NCBI RefSeq assembly: GCF_022647885.1
Contig: NZ_JALCLM010000001.1
Coordinates: 1,488,001 to 1,552,000, forward strand
Direction: 5' to 3'
DNA: 64,000 nt
From: Bifidobacterium sp.
GTDB lineage: Bacteria > Actinomycetota > Actinomycetes > Actinomycetales > Bifidobacteriaceae
The notes under the pieces: model-generated
What the model was told of the DNA's origin: nothing
Seen by the model: only the letters and a program-made list of their open reading frames with translations
The model's database searches: none
In this document: piece after piece, positions 4,957 through 44,111 of the stretch
How positions within the stretch are numbered: the first letter of the stretch is position 1
Layout: each line of letters opens with the position of its first letter
Position numbers and translations under genes: made by a program

Positions 4957-5217
4957 GTGGCAAACATTAAGTCGCAGAAGAAGCGCGTCATCACTAACGA
5001 TAAGGCGCACGAGCGCAACATCGCCGTCAAGAGCTCAATCAAGACGGCAGTGCGTTCCGTACGCGAAGCCGTTGAAAGCGGCGATAAGGCAGCAGCACAG
5101 TCTGCTTACCAACTTGCAGCTCAGCGTCTAGATAAGGCCGCGGGCAAAGGTGTGATTCACAAGAATCAAGCCGCAAACCGCAAGTCTGGTCTGGCTTCAG
5201 CTGTTAATGCTCTCTAA
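4957..5217 (+). CDS. rpsT: 30S ribosomal protein S20
   Basis: Small basic protein of 86 aa that binds 16S rRNA in the 30S body. The protein begins [20 protein letters not shown] and ends [13 protein letters not shown], both typical of S20. The start is taken as the GTG at 4957 because GGAG lies seven bases upstream and homologues begin MANIKSQ; the open frame extends further upstream to 4900 without family similarity. It is a single-gene unit, divergent from the adhesin, and followed by a strong terminator. Confidence 0.97.
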
Positions 5218-5242
5218 TCTGTTCAGCTCAATAGCTGTTCAT

Positions 5243-5278
5243 TGCTAATCCCCGCACCTGATGATGCGGGGATTAGCA
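5243..5278 (+). terminator. rho-independent terminator after rpsT
   Basis: TGCTAATCCCCGCA and TGCGGGGATTAGCA make a perfect 14-bp stem with an 8-nt loop, 25 nt after the rpsT stop. The T tract is poor on both strands. Confidence 0.75.
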
Positions 5279-5293
5279 TATGTAGTCATACCG

Positions 5294-5409
5294 ACGTTAG
5301 TGTAGGGATTTGTAATTATTCAAATCTCATCGTTACAGCAAAACCTTGGTATTAAGCCAAATATATCTTTTCCTATATTGAGAGCTACAAAAAATCCCTA
5401 CACTAACGT
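5294..5409. repeat. dispersed TIR element, copy A (116 bp)
   Basis: The ends ACGTTAGTGTAGGGATTT (5294-5311) and its exact complement (5392-5409) form 18-bp perfect terminal inverted repeats. The interior is AT-rich and holds a smaller TTGG/CCAA hairpin. It sits 14 nt downstream of the stop of the leftward TRIC-family gene, in a convergent intergenic region. It belongs to the same family as 24384-24493, 32490-32604 and 43983-44070. It carries TTAGTG where copy C has TTTGTG, and the change is matched in both arms. Confidence 0.85.
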
Positions 5410-5423
5410 AGATTGTTCAGAAA

Positions 5424-6200
5424 TCAAGCAAGATCATCCGGATTATGGGGCGCAGAACCTTCGTGGTTATCTCTGTGCACTTCATGCATCTGAGGATGCA
5501 CTACAGGTCGTCGCAAATAGCGAGAACGCATGTTGAGATGCGCACGTTCTCGTTCCAAAGCGCCTGGAAGCATAATATTAAACTTTACCGATAACAATCG
5601 CATTGCAACAATCAGAGCAACAATTGCTATATCGAGAATCATCTCACCGTGAAGATTAATTTTTCCTGCCTCTACAAATTTCCCGACCACAACAGTTAAA
5701 ATGCAGCCCACAAATGATGGAACAGCATACCAATGTTTATCCCTTATCACTGATGGGACTTCGTTAAGCAAGGCGTCCCTAATCACTCCACCAGCCAAAG
5801 CAGTAAACATACCCATAAACACCGCAGTCATTCCGGATGTATGAAAAGCCATAGCTTTAGCTGTGCCGTTGACAGCAAACAAGCCTAAGGCCATCGCGTC
5901 CACAACCACCATCGATCTGGTGAGGTTACCTATTTCTGGATGAGCTACCGCAATGACGATTCCGGAGAGTAATGCCGATAACACATAACCTTTATTAGTA
6001 ATACCTGCGGGAGGCAGACTTCCCAAAAGCACATCGCGAACAATACCGCCACCTAACGCAGTGACCCAAGAGATTATTAGAATAGTAAAAATATCGTAGT
6101 GTTTACGAGTTGCAGCTAAACCTCCGGACAAGCCAGAACAGAAAATAGCCAGATATTCGATAGCAATAAACACGGCATTGCTCTCTAACGCAACCGACAT
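5424..6200 (-). CDS. TRIC / UPF0126 family membrane channel protein
   Basis: Polytopic inner-membrane protein of 258 aa with about seven hydrophobic segments. It shows the two internally repeated signatures of the family, GGGIVRDVLLG in the first half and GGVIRDALLNEVP in the second, which reflect an ancient duplication. Relatives (YadS/YicG, trimeric intracellular cation channel fold) are linked to cation flux or glycine uptake, so the substrate is open. The ATG at 6200 is chosen because GGGAG lies just upstream; a TTG further up (6239) has no ribosome site. The last 40 residues are hydrophilic and Arg/His-rich, longer than in many relatives. It is convergent with rpsT and separated from it by repeat copy A. 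Confidence 0.85.
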   Translation of the reverse strand: MSVALESNAVFIAIEYLAIFCSGLSGGLAATRKHYDIFTILIISWVTALGGGIVRDVLLGSLPPAGITNKGYVLSALLSGIVIAVAHPEIGNLTRSMVVVDAMALGLFAVNGTAKAMAFHTSGMTAVFMGMFTALAGGVIRDALLNEVPSVIRDKHWYAVPSFVGCILTVVVGKFVEAGKINLHGEMILDIAIVALIVAMRLLSVKFNIMLPGALERERAHLNMRSRYLRRPVVHPQMHEVHRDNHEGSAPHNPDDLA

Positions 6201-6293
6201 AGTTTTCTCCCACAACATCAGCGATACCAGCGTTGCCAAGACTACCCGAAATCAATGGCGACTCACGATGGGAGTATCGATATTTTTTAGGCG

Positions 6294-23022: not shown

Positions 23023-24267
23023 ATGAGTAAGAATCCTAAGATTCTGTCCATTGTTCTGGCAGGAGGAGAGGGAACCCGGCTAATGCCGCTCACGCGAGAC
23101 AGAGCAAAACCAGCCGTTCCCTTTGGTGGGGTATTCCGCCTCATTGATTTCCCCTTAAGTAATCTGGTGAACTCTGCTTACCGACAAATCGTGGTATTAA
23201 CGCAATATAAGTCACACTCTCTTGATCGTCATATATCACAGATGTGGCGTTTTTCACCGATGCTTGGCAGCTATGTCTCCCCTGTTCCAGCTCAGCAGCG
23301 TCTCGGTAAGCATTGGTATTTAGGCTCTGCTGACGCTATTTACCAGACCATCAATATCATCGAAGATGTCCGTCCAGACATTGTCGTTATTCTTGGCGCT
23401 GATCACGTCTACCGCATGGATTTTGAACAGATGGTTCAGCAGCATATCGATTCTGGAGCAGAATTTACCGTTGCAGGAATAAGACAGCCCGCTACAGATG
23501 CTAAACAATTTGGTGTTATAGATGTAGACCCTGATCACCCTGACATGATCCGCAGCTTCCAAGAAAAGCCGGATAACCCTTCTGTGATGCCGGATGACCC
23601 CAGCACGATTCTGGCCTCGATGGGCAATTATGTTGCCAATACCAAAGCCTTATTCGAGGCATTAGCTCTCGACGAAAAAGCTTCGGACACGAAACACGAT
23701 ATGGGCGGCGATATTGCGCCATTCTTTGCTGGGCGACATGAAGCTGGCGTCTATGATTTCAACAAGAATGACGTACCTGGCTCAAATACCAAAGATCATG
23801 CATATTGGCGAGATGTGGGAACCATCAAACAGTTCTACGACGCACACATGGATCTCATTGCCTACGTACCAGAATTTAATCTCTACAACACACAATGGCC
23901 TATTTACACCAACATCGGTTCACTGCCTCCTGCGAAGTTCGTTCACTCAGGACAAGACAGGCTTGGCCACGCTACTGATTCAATAGTTTCACCAGGCGTT
24001 ATCGTTTCCGGTGGTGAGGTTCATCACTCGGTGTTATCTCCGAATGTACGAATCCATTCTTGGGCACAGGTTGTCGACTCAATTCTATTCAACGGCGTGA
24101 TTGTTAATCGACGTGCACGCATCTATAAAGCAATAATCGACAAGAATGTGATTCTTGAAGAGAATGCAACAGTCGGCATTGACACTCAACACGATATCGA
24201 ACGCGGTTTTACTGTAACTGCGGAGGGAATAACCGTGGTGCCAAAGGGCACAGTAGTTAAAGATTGA
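23023..24267 (+). CDS. glgC: glucose-1-phosphate adenylyltransferase
   Basis: Makes ADP-glucose from ATP and glucose-1-phosphate, the committed step of bacterial glycogen synthesis. Its 414 aa hold the nucleotidyltransferase signature [14 protein letters not shown] with K in [10 protein letters not shown], the catalytic [12 protein letters not shown], the sugar-binding DFNKND-type segment and a C-terminal left-handed beta-helix (about 290-414). GGAAGGAGAG precedes the ATG. It stands alone without glgA or glgB, ends in a strong terminator, and is followed by repeat copy B. Confidence 0.96.
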
Positions 24268-24335: not shown

Positions 24336-24383
24336 CGAAGCAATTCGCTTGAATACTCACCATTATCGAGCAAGCTAAAACGA

Positions 24384-24493
24384 TTGTGTAGGGATTTGCT
24401 CGAGAAACTCGACTATATCAATCAATAAAACCGCGCCATTCCGCCATTCTTGGAAAAGATATACATCGGGTATCACTATAAAACCCTACACAA
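24384..24493. repeat. dispersed TIR element, copy B (110 bp)
   Basis: TTGTGTAGGGATTT at the left end is matched by AAACCCTACACAA at the right end with one difference. The interior contains CGAG/CTCG and the motif GGAAAAGATATA, which is also present (reverse strand) in copy A, and GAATGGCG (reverse strand), shared with copy D. It lies 33 nt downstream of the stop of the SufT-like gene, between convergent genes. No flanking target-site duplication is visible. Confidence 0.82.
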
Positions 24494-24526
24494 AAGAGAT
24501 CCAGACGCGATTCGCTTCTAGAATGC

Positions 24527-25099
24527 TCAGGTGTGAGGCATTGCACTGAAGTTAAACCCGAGAGCAGCCAACTGTTCACGACCTTCTGGAGAAATCATGT
24601 CCATCGTCCAGCGTGGAGTCCATGTCCAATCAATTCTAAATTCTTCGACCAACCCCGCTAGCACGCTGGCACATTGATCCTCAAGCATATCCGTCAACGG
24701 GCATGCCGGTGTGGTAAGCGTCATCGTAATAATTGCTCTACCCTGCTCGTCGATTTCAATGCCATAGACTAAACCAAGGTCTATCACATCAATACCAAGT
24801 TCAGGATCGATAACTTGATGGAGAGCCTCCATCACATCTTGAGCCGTTGCCCGTCCGATGTCATCAAGAGCTTTGATAGGAATCTGTGCCTCATCGTCAT
24901 CTCCACCACAGCCGCAGCTACCACCACAGGCGCAGTTCGAATCATTGGCGTGAGAGTGTGAATCAGCAGAGCGATTGTATAAGGCAGCACGTTCTGGATT
25001 AGCCATGACTTTACGTGCAGCGTCCTCACTACCGACCACTGACTCGATAGAGTCAAGTATCGAACCAGTAGGCTCAGGAACCAAGCTTGAGTGCGTCAT
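24527..25099 (-). CDS. sufT: SufT-like metal-sulfur cluster assembly factor (MIP18/DUF59) with Cys/His-rich arm
   Basis: The C-terminal half (about 85-185) is a MIP18/DUF59 domain, the iron-sulfur maturation module of SufT and PaaD: DPELGIDVIDLGLVYGIEID and LTTPACPLTD with its conserved cysteine. The N-terminal half carries an additional segment with H48, H50 and C56, C58, C62, C64 in a Gly/Asp-rich run (CACGGSCGCGGDDD), a plausible metal site not part of the core family. The ATG at 25099 follows GAAGGGA and lies one base after the sufU stop; the frame is open 22 codons upstream. It is the last gene of the SUF operon. Confidence 0.85.
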   Translation of the reverse strand: MTHSSLVPEPTGSILDSIESVVGSEDAARKVMANPERAALYNRSADSHSHANDSNCACGGSCGCGGDDDEAQIPIKALDDIGRATAQDVMEALHQVIDPELGIDVIDLGLVYGIEIDEQGRAIITMTLTTPACPLTDMLEDQCASVLAGLVEEFRIDWTWTPRWTMDMISPEGREQLAALGFNFSAMPHT

Positions 25100-25100
25100 C

Positions 25101-25757
25101 TTAACGTCCCTTCGTTTGTAAAACGGCTGCTGGCTTATTCTCCAACGCAGACAGTGCCTGAGCAACTGAGGCTTTCATGCCTTCCCAACCTAGCAAAGCG
25201 CATTTTATACGCATCGGATACCTCGAGACGCCCTGAAATACCACAGCATCTCCCAGCGCCTCATCATCAAAATCTTCAGGCATTCCTTTGCCACGAGAAT
25301 CCATAAGTGTATGAAAGTCTTGGGCTACTTTCATGGCTTCATCAACCGTTTTATGTTCAATCAGATCAACCATAACTGACAGACTGGCCTGTGAAATTGA
25401 ACAGCCCTGGCCGTCCCATACTAAACGCTGGATACGAGGTGGATTGCCGTCAGTGCCGTCAGAAACTTCAACGTGAACTGTTACCTCGTCACCGCATGTC
25501 GGGTTAAATTGGTGAGATTGCGCTGGGACACAATACTCGTGCGCTACTGCGAGTGTGGTGCTTCCATCCGATTCAGTCTCAGATACGCCTAAATCTGTTT
25601 TGCCGTGAGGATCTCTTGCAGCATCCAGAATAACCTCCTGGTACATCTGCTCAAGATCCTCATCAGTCATGCCATATAAAGCCATGGAGTCTAAAATACT
25701 CGTTTCCTGTGTAGTAATCGATACTTCTTCACTTGACGCGGAAGAAGGCTCGCACAC
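25101..25757 (-). CDS. sufU: iron-sulfur cluster assembly protein SufU
   Basis: IscU-fold protein that in Gram-positive bacteria is a zinc-dependent sulfurtransferase partner of SufS. The expected metal ligands are present: Cys-Gly-Asp in NPTCGDEV, Cys in GQGCSISQAS, and Cys in RIKCALLGWEG. The GTG at 25757 overlaps sufS by 29 nt; an ATG at 25685 (MALYGMTDEDLEQMYQ) fits homologous N-termini better but has no ribosome site, so the start is uncertain. Total length is 218 or 194 aa. It lies between sufS and the SufT-like gene. Confidence 0.9.
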   Translation of the reverse strand: MCEPSSASSEEVSITTQETSILDSMALYGMTDEDLEQMYQEVILDAARDPHGKTDLGVSETESDGSTTLAVAHEYCVPAQSHQFNPTCGDEVTVHVEVSDGTDGNPPRIQRLVWDGQGCSISQASLSVMVDLIEHKTVDEAMKVAQDFHTLMDSRGKGMPEDFDDEALGDAVVFQGVSRYPMRIKCALLGWEGMKASVAQALSALENKPAAVLQTKGR

Positions 25758-32489: not shown

Positions 32490-32604
32490 CGTTTGTGTAG
32501 GGATTTGTTGTAAAAAGCTCAACTCCCCATGGGCGAAAAGACTGGAATTCCAACATTATGAGTTTTGAGATATATCAGAAACTCTACAAATCCCTACACA
32601 AACG
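32490..32604. repeat. dispersed TIR element, copy C (115 bp)
   Basis: CGTTTGTGTAGGGATTTG (32490-32507) and its exact complement (32587-32604) form 18-bp perfect terminal inverted repeats. The right half also holds GAGTTT/AAACTC and GATATATC. It starts 12 nt after the aroQ stop and about 107 nt upstream of pyrG, both leftward genes, so it is not confined to convergent gaps. Confidence 0.87.
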
Positions 32605-43757: not shown

Positions 43758-43982
43758 ATATTCATTCCTTTATTGCTGTCGTTATCTGAACGCAGGTGGT
43801 AAACCCACCGAGTCAGCCTCTCCAATGCTTCACCGTGCTGTGCACGAGCGATGTTTCCACCGCCGTCCCATTGACGGGCTAAGACTCCAGAAAGATGCCT
43901 CCTTGTGCAGGCACCAGCGTTTAATCCTACACTATGGTCTGAATTTTTACGACACACAGCTAGGCAGTACTTCTCATTTCAG

Positions 43983-44070
43983 TTGTGTAGGGATTTTTCG
44001 TCAAATGCTAAGTACAATGCCTGTTGTTACGCCATTCATAGTGCCGATATACCGAAAAATCCCTACACAA
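43983..44070. repeat. dispersed TIR element, copy D (88 bp)
   Basis: TTGTGTAGGGATTTTTCG (43983-44000) and its exact complement (44053-44070) are 18-bp perfect terminal inverted repeats. This is the shortest copy, yet its terminal stem is intact, and the TTTTCG inner part differs from the other copies in both arms together. GAATGGCG on the reverse strand is shared with copy B. It lies 41 nt after the stop of pcrA. Confidence 0.86.
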
Positions 44071-44111
44071 ACGTACTACTCGTTGAAAAATCTAGTCTAG
44101 ACGCTGTAATC

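Follow-up and report, generated by a model that had tools for sequence, protein, structure and literature searches.

We analysed a window of 64 kb (positions 1,488,001–1,552,000 of a Bifidobacterium sp. genome, G000, a 2.34-Mb single contig) that encodes a bifidobacterial-type phosphoketolase equivalog. The locus of copy A consists of the gene 5424–6239, the element itself, an rpsT hairpin and rpsT, and it has the same arrangement in a sister species, G008, in which the orthologous element lies at C2:847923. Three further elements, copies B, C and D, are situated elsewhere in the window (Table 1).

A preliminary description of this DNA had reported four elements with shared ends, and all of them are present where it placed them. 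The perfect 18-bp terminal inverted repeats that it had noted in three copies are likewise there, measuring 18 bp in A, 19 bp in C and 18 bp in D; that of B is 10 bp long. The window contains GTGTAGGGATTT four times and AAATCCCTACAC three times, and copy B ends in AAAACCCTACAC. A profile model trained on 48 genomic copies, copy C among them, matches exactly copies A–D in the window (best-strand E 1.5e-18 to 9.4e-11), with no fifth element in the 64 kb up to an E of 10. Of the short words reported earlier as shared between interiors, GAATGGCG and GGAAAAGATATA, the former includes a half-site of the central palindrome (see below). No plasmid relatives of copy A were found.

Table 1. Elements in the 64-kb window, with their phased flanks and neighbouring genes (positions within the window)
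Feature	Position	Strand	Details
Copy A with CGTTT-type end extensions	5295..5408	.	Pattern and model match; flank-phase score z 2.56 (both flanks)
Copy A core, GTGTAGGG..CCCTACAC	5300-5403		104 bp, arms 52+52
Copy A central (dyad) palindrome region	5342..5361	.	Unconstrained weight-matrix location
Copy A left phased flank	5150..5294	.	Extent is the genome-wide average
Copy A right phased flank	5409..5553	.	Enters the 3′ end of gene 5424-6239 (-)
Copy B	24381..24496	.	Core 24386-24491, 106 bp; flank z 4.37
Copy B neighbour, glgC-like gene	23023-24267	+
Copy B neighbour, gene	24527-25165	-
Copy C	32490..32604	.	Core 32495-32599, 105 bp; flank z 2.13
Copy C neighbour, aroQ 3′ end	32617	-
Copy C neighbour, pyrG start	32382	-
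Copy D	43980..44073	.	Core 43985-44068, 84 bp, 8-turn class; flank z 3.11
Copy D neighbour, pcrA-like 3′ end	44112	-
Copy D neighbour, rpsD start	43757	-

The complete G000 genome has 83 matches to the strict pair GTGTAGGG-N40..100-CCCTACAC and none to a reversed-pattern control; G008 has 55 matches to the pair. With one mismatch allowed, the count is 92 for G000 and 54 for G008, in stretches fetched around pattern matches, so that degenerate copies elsewhere are missed; the exact pattern is also blind to total lengths above 116 bp. The profile model adds at least four degenerate copies in G000, its counts for both genomes being lower bounds (the best ≤136 candidates were scored per genome). 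The whole-genome search proposed in the preliminary description thus uncovers a large family, with at least 92 copies in G000.

The elements are restricted to one lineage. The strict pair is absent from the other 25 genomes of the genus and from 32 additional genomes at family and order level, and a longer form of the pattern is absent from 393 other genomes of the class, a draw without G008. In the remaining 25 genomes of the genus, the model detects no element at E ≤0.01 among the best ≤136 candidates per genome, and 787 kb of genome G011 likewise gave no match. A wider scan of genome contigs, at total lengths of 78–98 bp and so below the common 104–106 bp class, turned up named relatives sharing the element. 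A lone exact match outside Bifidobacterium, 82 bp long and single in its genome, lies in Alkalihalobacillus macyae (L046); its interior has no core palindrome by eye, and it is probably due to chance.

Both ends of an element carry a directional 16-bp motif, CGTTTGTGTAGGGATT, that points inward. In 52-bp arms, GTGTAGGG is preceded on its outer side by C (87%), G (75%), T (75%), T (98%) and T (95%) and followed on its inner side by A (98%), T (94%) and T (91%); conservation of GTGTAGGG itself follows from the way the search was built, but that of its CGTTT and ATT neighbours does not. Weaker A.AC and GTAT motifs recur at constant offsets from the end (about +18 to +21 and +27 to +30, respectively), and a central palindrome, AAnGGCGGAATTCCGCCnTT, which was located by a weight matrix with no positional constraint, marks the dyad. 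Beyond the core and a few similar sets, the interiors have no common sequence.

The distance from the dyad to the end is 41–43 bp in 28 arms, 51–53 bp in 235 arms and 63–64 bp in 10 arms, and 273 of 278 arms fall into these classes of four, five or six helical turns. Among the elements with a strong core (n = 123), whole-turn classes account for 245 of 246 arms. Total lengths are therefore 84, 93–95, 103–106 and 115–117 bp, corresponding to about 8, 9, 10 and 11 turns. All elements outside the 103–106 bp class have whole-turn lengths, both in G000 (25/25, P 5.3e-18) and in G008 (13/13, P 1.0e-9). In a gap-free alignment made by eye, 7 of 10 positions are identical between the core half-site TGGCGGAATT and the end TGTAGGGATT, which suggests that one protein may read four sites pointing at the dyad. 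All but a few of the end motifs in G000 pair at a spacing of 84–117 bp, and hence no longer parent with these ends is seen in this genome.

A minority of elements have long near-perfect internal palindromes around the core (G000 204854, 214509 and 250897; G008 C1:133553 and C2:749081). We also observed three inside-out pairs in G000, in which the end motifs face outward (353494/353612, 573943/574060 and 1003416/1003491; L221, L053 and L223). They are separated by 107, 107 and 65 bp, the difference of 42 bp being four turns. No such pair was found in G008, where total spans of 54–114 bp were covered, a range that takes in just one of the three G000 pairs.

According to simple ORF calling, the 92 elements in G000 comprise 39 with convergent, 45 with tandem and 7 with divergent flanking genes, plus one for which a gene call on one side is lacking; of the 54 in G008, the flanking genes are convergent for 30, tandem for 19 and divergent for 5. 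Since about 8–9% are located between divergent genes, gene 3′ ends are not required. The median distance, pooled with the array-bearing species described below, is 50 bp to gene 3′ ends (237 such flanks) and 121 bp to gene 5′ ends. Regular spacing along the chromosome was not seen (CV 0.92 versus 0.99 for random placement, s.d. 0.10). The stretch G000:C1:1-135304 is without elements where 5.3 are expected (P 0.005), and the model also finds none in 1–120 kb.

The proximity to gene 3′ ends, the inverted repeats and the long internal palindromes of a few copies are all features that would suit a transcribed hairpin, be it a terminator, an RNase III site or a 3′-UTR stabiliser, and a structured 3′-UTR or terminator element had been one of the readings in the preliminary description. 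However, a 16-pair stem has 93.2% of its cells paired over 48 copies versus 93.0% after shuffling, and the covariation score of the ends is 0.043 versus 0.041. At each position, the complementarity of left and right ends equals that expected from independent conservation, with the exception of position −1 (z 4.5). As the ends show no covariation, the inverted repeat thus represents a binding motif present twice rather than a stem maintained as such. Rfam matches in the window are limited to two tRNAs, and positions 5100–5600 hold no terminator-like site; the rpsT hairpin is separate from the element and stays in G011, where the element is absent. Whole-turn lengths and the phased flanks described next also have no RNA explanation. 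The covariation counts rule against an RNA hairpin, and we give this reading almost no credence.

The DNA on either side of the elements is helically phased; neither this nor the spacing in whole turns had been noticed in the preliminary description. Across 184 half-flanks in G000, the mean frequency of dinucleotides made up of A/T only (WW) oscillates from about 0.1 to 0.6, with a period near 10.5 bp, for which phase drift yields an estimate near 10.45 bp. The phasing starts just outside the element, extends about 150 bp and reaches background by about 150–200 bp in G000; in G008, it can be followed clearly for about 90 bp. AA, TT, AT and TA have a common phase and G/C dinucleotides are half a turn off in both species. 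In successive 42-bp windows of the G000 flanks, the WW amplitude is 0.101, 0.069, 0.039 and 0.017, against random-shift maxima of 0.024, 0.023, 0.016 and 0.015 for the same windows, and random shifts of 0–10 bp per flank abolish the periodicity. Measured from the element end, the phase agrees within 0.3 bp across the 84, 94, 105 and 116 bp classes. Such phased alternation of A/T and G/C is the rotational signature of DNA that is bent or wrapped.

The phasing is seen in coding as well as non-coding flanks. In phase, z exceeds 1.64 for 82 of 92 elements in G000 and 44 of 54 in G008 (z is below −1.64 for none), and at four-fold degenerate third positions of 3′ ends facing an element the A/T content in G000 is 61% in phase versus 49% out of phase (z 3.8; control at synonymous sites 300–600 bp away, z −1.5), the effect being weak in G008 (30% versus 26%, z 1.7); these per-element and synonymous-site z values are somewhat flattering because the phase was derived from the same flanks. 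Around 20 old shared copies, the phasing is as strong as around the others. In orthologous coding DNA of G011, which is element-free, the in-phase amplitude is 0.019 (s.e. 0.010) versus 0.057 in G000, and 0.013 (s.e. 0.013) versus 0.059 in G008, so the phasing goes with the element. Recent copies already have phased flanks (for example, G008 C2:55128, z 5.4, and C2:75268, z 4.4), and a choice of curved targets may therefore contribute part of the signal.

Periodic flanks around a symmetric centre are also a property of strong DNA gyrase sites. If the elements were such sites, the dyad would be the gate and the flanks would wrap on the GyrA C-terminal domains, relieving positive supercoils between converging genes. 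Passages of the report on E. coli gyrase sites describe 10.75-bp periodic G/C flanks and an over-representation in intergenic BIME-2 (PMC6379681); convergent pairs are favoured by our elements, and the core consensus includes GAATTC, which is the palindrome in the gate segment of a solved gyrase structure, as given in part of that work (PMC12393610). However, the E. coli motif in the same passages is 130 bp long, with 47-bp flanks and a degenerate 36-bp centre (PMC6379681), whereas the phasing here has a period of about 10.45 bp over roughly 300–400 bp, and it is the 16-bp motif, 42–64 bp from the dyad, that is most strongly conserved. Moreover, gyrase is general in bacteria, but the elements are found in few species. 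A gyrase site appears improbable.

Comparison of G000 and G008 reveals 20 pairs of elements between the same two flanking genes and 16 more with one flanking gene in common. In the 20 orthologous pairs, the interiors are 36.5% identical (30.2% for random partners) and the flanks 31.5% identical (27.1% for random partners); the ends are intact, and two of the pairs differ in length by one turn. Intact ends combined with mostly unrelated interiors at orthologous sites indicate that the ends are held by selection. The empty sites that the preliminary description suggested looking for are represented by one orthologous element-free site, the copy-A locus of G011, which has the same genes (neighbour protein 87% identical) and the hairpin but lacks the element, in line with mobility.

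Similar interiors occur in three sets (G000 1180820/1190327, 94%; G008 C1:133553/137460, 96%; G008 C2:55128/75268, 85%), whose flanks appear unrelated over 45 bp, and copies thus also move. A target-site duplication was not detected in 139 elements at offsets of 0–12 and lengths of 2–9 (largest z 2.5 among 91 tests), and such a duplication may have been lost from old copies. The earlier MITE-like reading holds with respect to mobility and inverted terminal repeats; it does not hold for a target duplication, a common interior or a longer parent with the same ends.

Related arrangements are present in B. jacchi, B. myosotis, B. reuteri and B. goeldii, which carry arrays of a 19-bp repeat (CCCAYSRTGTAGGGANNN). 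As in the elements, sites (TGTAGGGA) point from both sides at a core of the GGCGGAATTCCGCC type; the arrays differ in having as many as five sites on each side, repeated every 19 bp, whereas the elements have one end motif on each side. In 31 of 34 arrays, the innermost sites are spaced by 56 or 67 bp, values that differ by one turn, and by eye the 19-bp step continues into the core half-site. Among the 31 array loci fetched, 24 score E ≤1 with the G000/G008 model. Flank periodicity is weak in the arrays (0.021, noise 0.007). Within the 19-bp units (L184-L214), a four-base stretch at +8 to +11 varies from unit to unit.

In viral contigs, the 16-bp end is found in four stretches, each with one isolated match, and the paired pattern in five, of which those with examined flanking genes lie near D5-type primase genes or a terminase gene. 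We rejected these five paired stretches as family members, since they give no match to the element model and, on a rough estimate, a few such matches would arise by chance. Inverted repeats of the TGTAGGG type are present in four phage-like contigs of 64–68% G+C (L179, L180, L181 and L183), three of which (L179, L180 and L183) have D5-type primase/helicase genes nearby; these, too, are without a model match and may include chance occurrences.

To our knowledge, local target contacts of transposition reach far less than about 150 bp. This bears on the main rival explanation, a REPIN- or MITE-like selfish element with the same complex geometry, moved by a putative transposase or recombinase. The ends would be outer sites and the core half-sites inner sites, the whole-turn arms would serve a synaptic complex, and the phased flanks would reflect insertion into curved DNA. 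The inverted directional ends, the similar copies in unrelated flanks, the recent copies in phased flanks, the empty site in G011 and the inverted 19-bp repeat arrays, which in B. myosotis include similar copies at separate places, all agree with such an element. On the other hand, there is neither a detectable target-site duplication nor a longer element with the same ends in G000, the ends remain intact at orthologous sites though interiors are nearly unalignable, and the phasing extends for about 150 bp on each side, much farther than such target contacts. The Y1 transposase domain Y1_Tnp (PF01797) is also absent from all 27 genus genomes searched (control search positive in 5 of 14 named genomes). 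We regard such a selfish element as unlikely, although a more serious contender than a gyrase site.

We looked for proteins that might act on the elements. The archaeal-type histone fold (PF00808) is absent from the 27 genus genomes (control positive in 3 of 14); a nucleosome built on an archaeal-type histone was rejected on this ground, even though the flanks show the rotational dinucleotide signal. HU/IHF (PF00216) has one match each in 26 genomes, including G000 and G008, and two adjacent partial matches in G024; an extra HU/IHF paralogue in the element-bearing genomes can be dismissed, as neither G000 nor G008 has an additional copy. Genes between close elements or beside inside-out pairs yielded no binding-protein candidate: ten were searched, and they gave ordinary matches (e.g., melibiase, IspD, ABC transporter, PIF1 helicase and MFS), with two remaining without a match.

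Taken together, the best-supported account, which we hold to be somewhat more probable than all others combined, is that the elements are mobile sites that may nucleate a helically phased DNA-bending complex and are selected at many loci. Each element would act as a double-stranded DNA site, not as an RNA or DNA hairpin. A putative protein, probably a C2-symmetric oligomer, would read the directional end motifs and the central palindromic pair, and only arms of four, five or six turns would survive because the parts must share one face of the helix. The bound complex would bend or wrap the DNA, with bending continuing beyond the ends, so that the neighbouring DNA, including the codon choice in gene 3′ ends, would carry the phased pattern of A/T facing in and G/C facing out over about 90–150 bp per side. 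Bending combined with phased flanks would thus make the site the nucleus of a bent nucleoprotein loop of roughly 300–400 bp, mostly near gene 3′ ends. Spread would occur by rare copying into new intergenic places, followed by retention.

The anatomy, the phasing, the selection on the ends, the mobility of copies and the restriction to one lineage are direct findings; a single protein for all half-sites, wrapping in vivo and an architectural role are what we infer. The latter could consist in supercoil handling, for example the pinning of plectoneme tips or the restraint of supercoils between converging genes. More tentatively, about a hundred sequence-encoded nucleosome-like particles may exist on the bacterial chromosome, each nucleated by a mobile element whose directional ends and dyad are in helical register, and each with a protein wrapping roughly 300–400 bp, their code overlapping coding sequence.

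If the favoured account of a DNA-bending complex is correct, some bacteria use sequence to position bent or wrapped DNA particles at about a hundred chromosomal sites, which a mobile element spreads, and this would link the evolution of selfish repeats to chromosome architecture. The family would then be a natural comparative system for the positioning of supercoils and DNA loops in bacteria, and the register predicts which insertions (5 bp versus 10 bp) would break a site.

We call the family a new kind because each known kind compared with it fails at least one defining feature and because topic and sequence-string searches found no description of it in the open-access literature; titles were unrelated among the matches listed in the sequence-string search. 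The earlier statement that no named bifidobacterial family with these ends was known therefore stands for the literature searched, and novelty in this sense is not proof that no description exists.

The closest parallel in anatomy is provided by the REPINs with their RAYT (Bertels and Rainey 2011), which are likewise intergenic mobile units with two inverted conserved 16-bp ends and a less conserved interior; in parts of that work, the ends of each class are a set distance apart (71 bp for GI), hairpin changes are compensatory and a Y1 transposase is associated (PMC3116915), and REPIN populations are described in part of another study as persisting long (PMC8049555). Unlike in REPINs, the end distance of our elements steps by helical turns, and a REPIN/RAYT assignment was rejected, as there are no compensatory hairpin changes and no Y1_Tnp in the 27 genomes. 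GTAG-tagged REP dimers are inverted pairs 20–100 bp apart, whose spacers can be similar in length and different in sequence, according to sections of PMC3733652, and GTAG is also contained in the element end motif GTGTAGGG. REP units are stem-loops in those sections (PMC3733652), whereas the element end motif is non-palindromic and read directionally; the words 'Bifidobacterium' and 'helical' are absent from the main text of that paper.

Strong gyrase sites share with the elements a symmetric site and nucleosome-like periodic flanks, whereas conserved distal ends, whole-turn arm classes or mobility are not part of the motif as described in passages of PMC6379681. Intrinsically curved plectoneme-pinning DNA is, in the portions of PMC6301789 that deal with it, an effect of bare DNA of about 75 bp upstream of promoters, with neither sequence-specific ends nor a repeat family described there. 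Our elements nevertheless resemble it in having a sequence-encoded curvature of the kind that is thought to position supercoil tips (PMC6301789).
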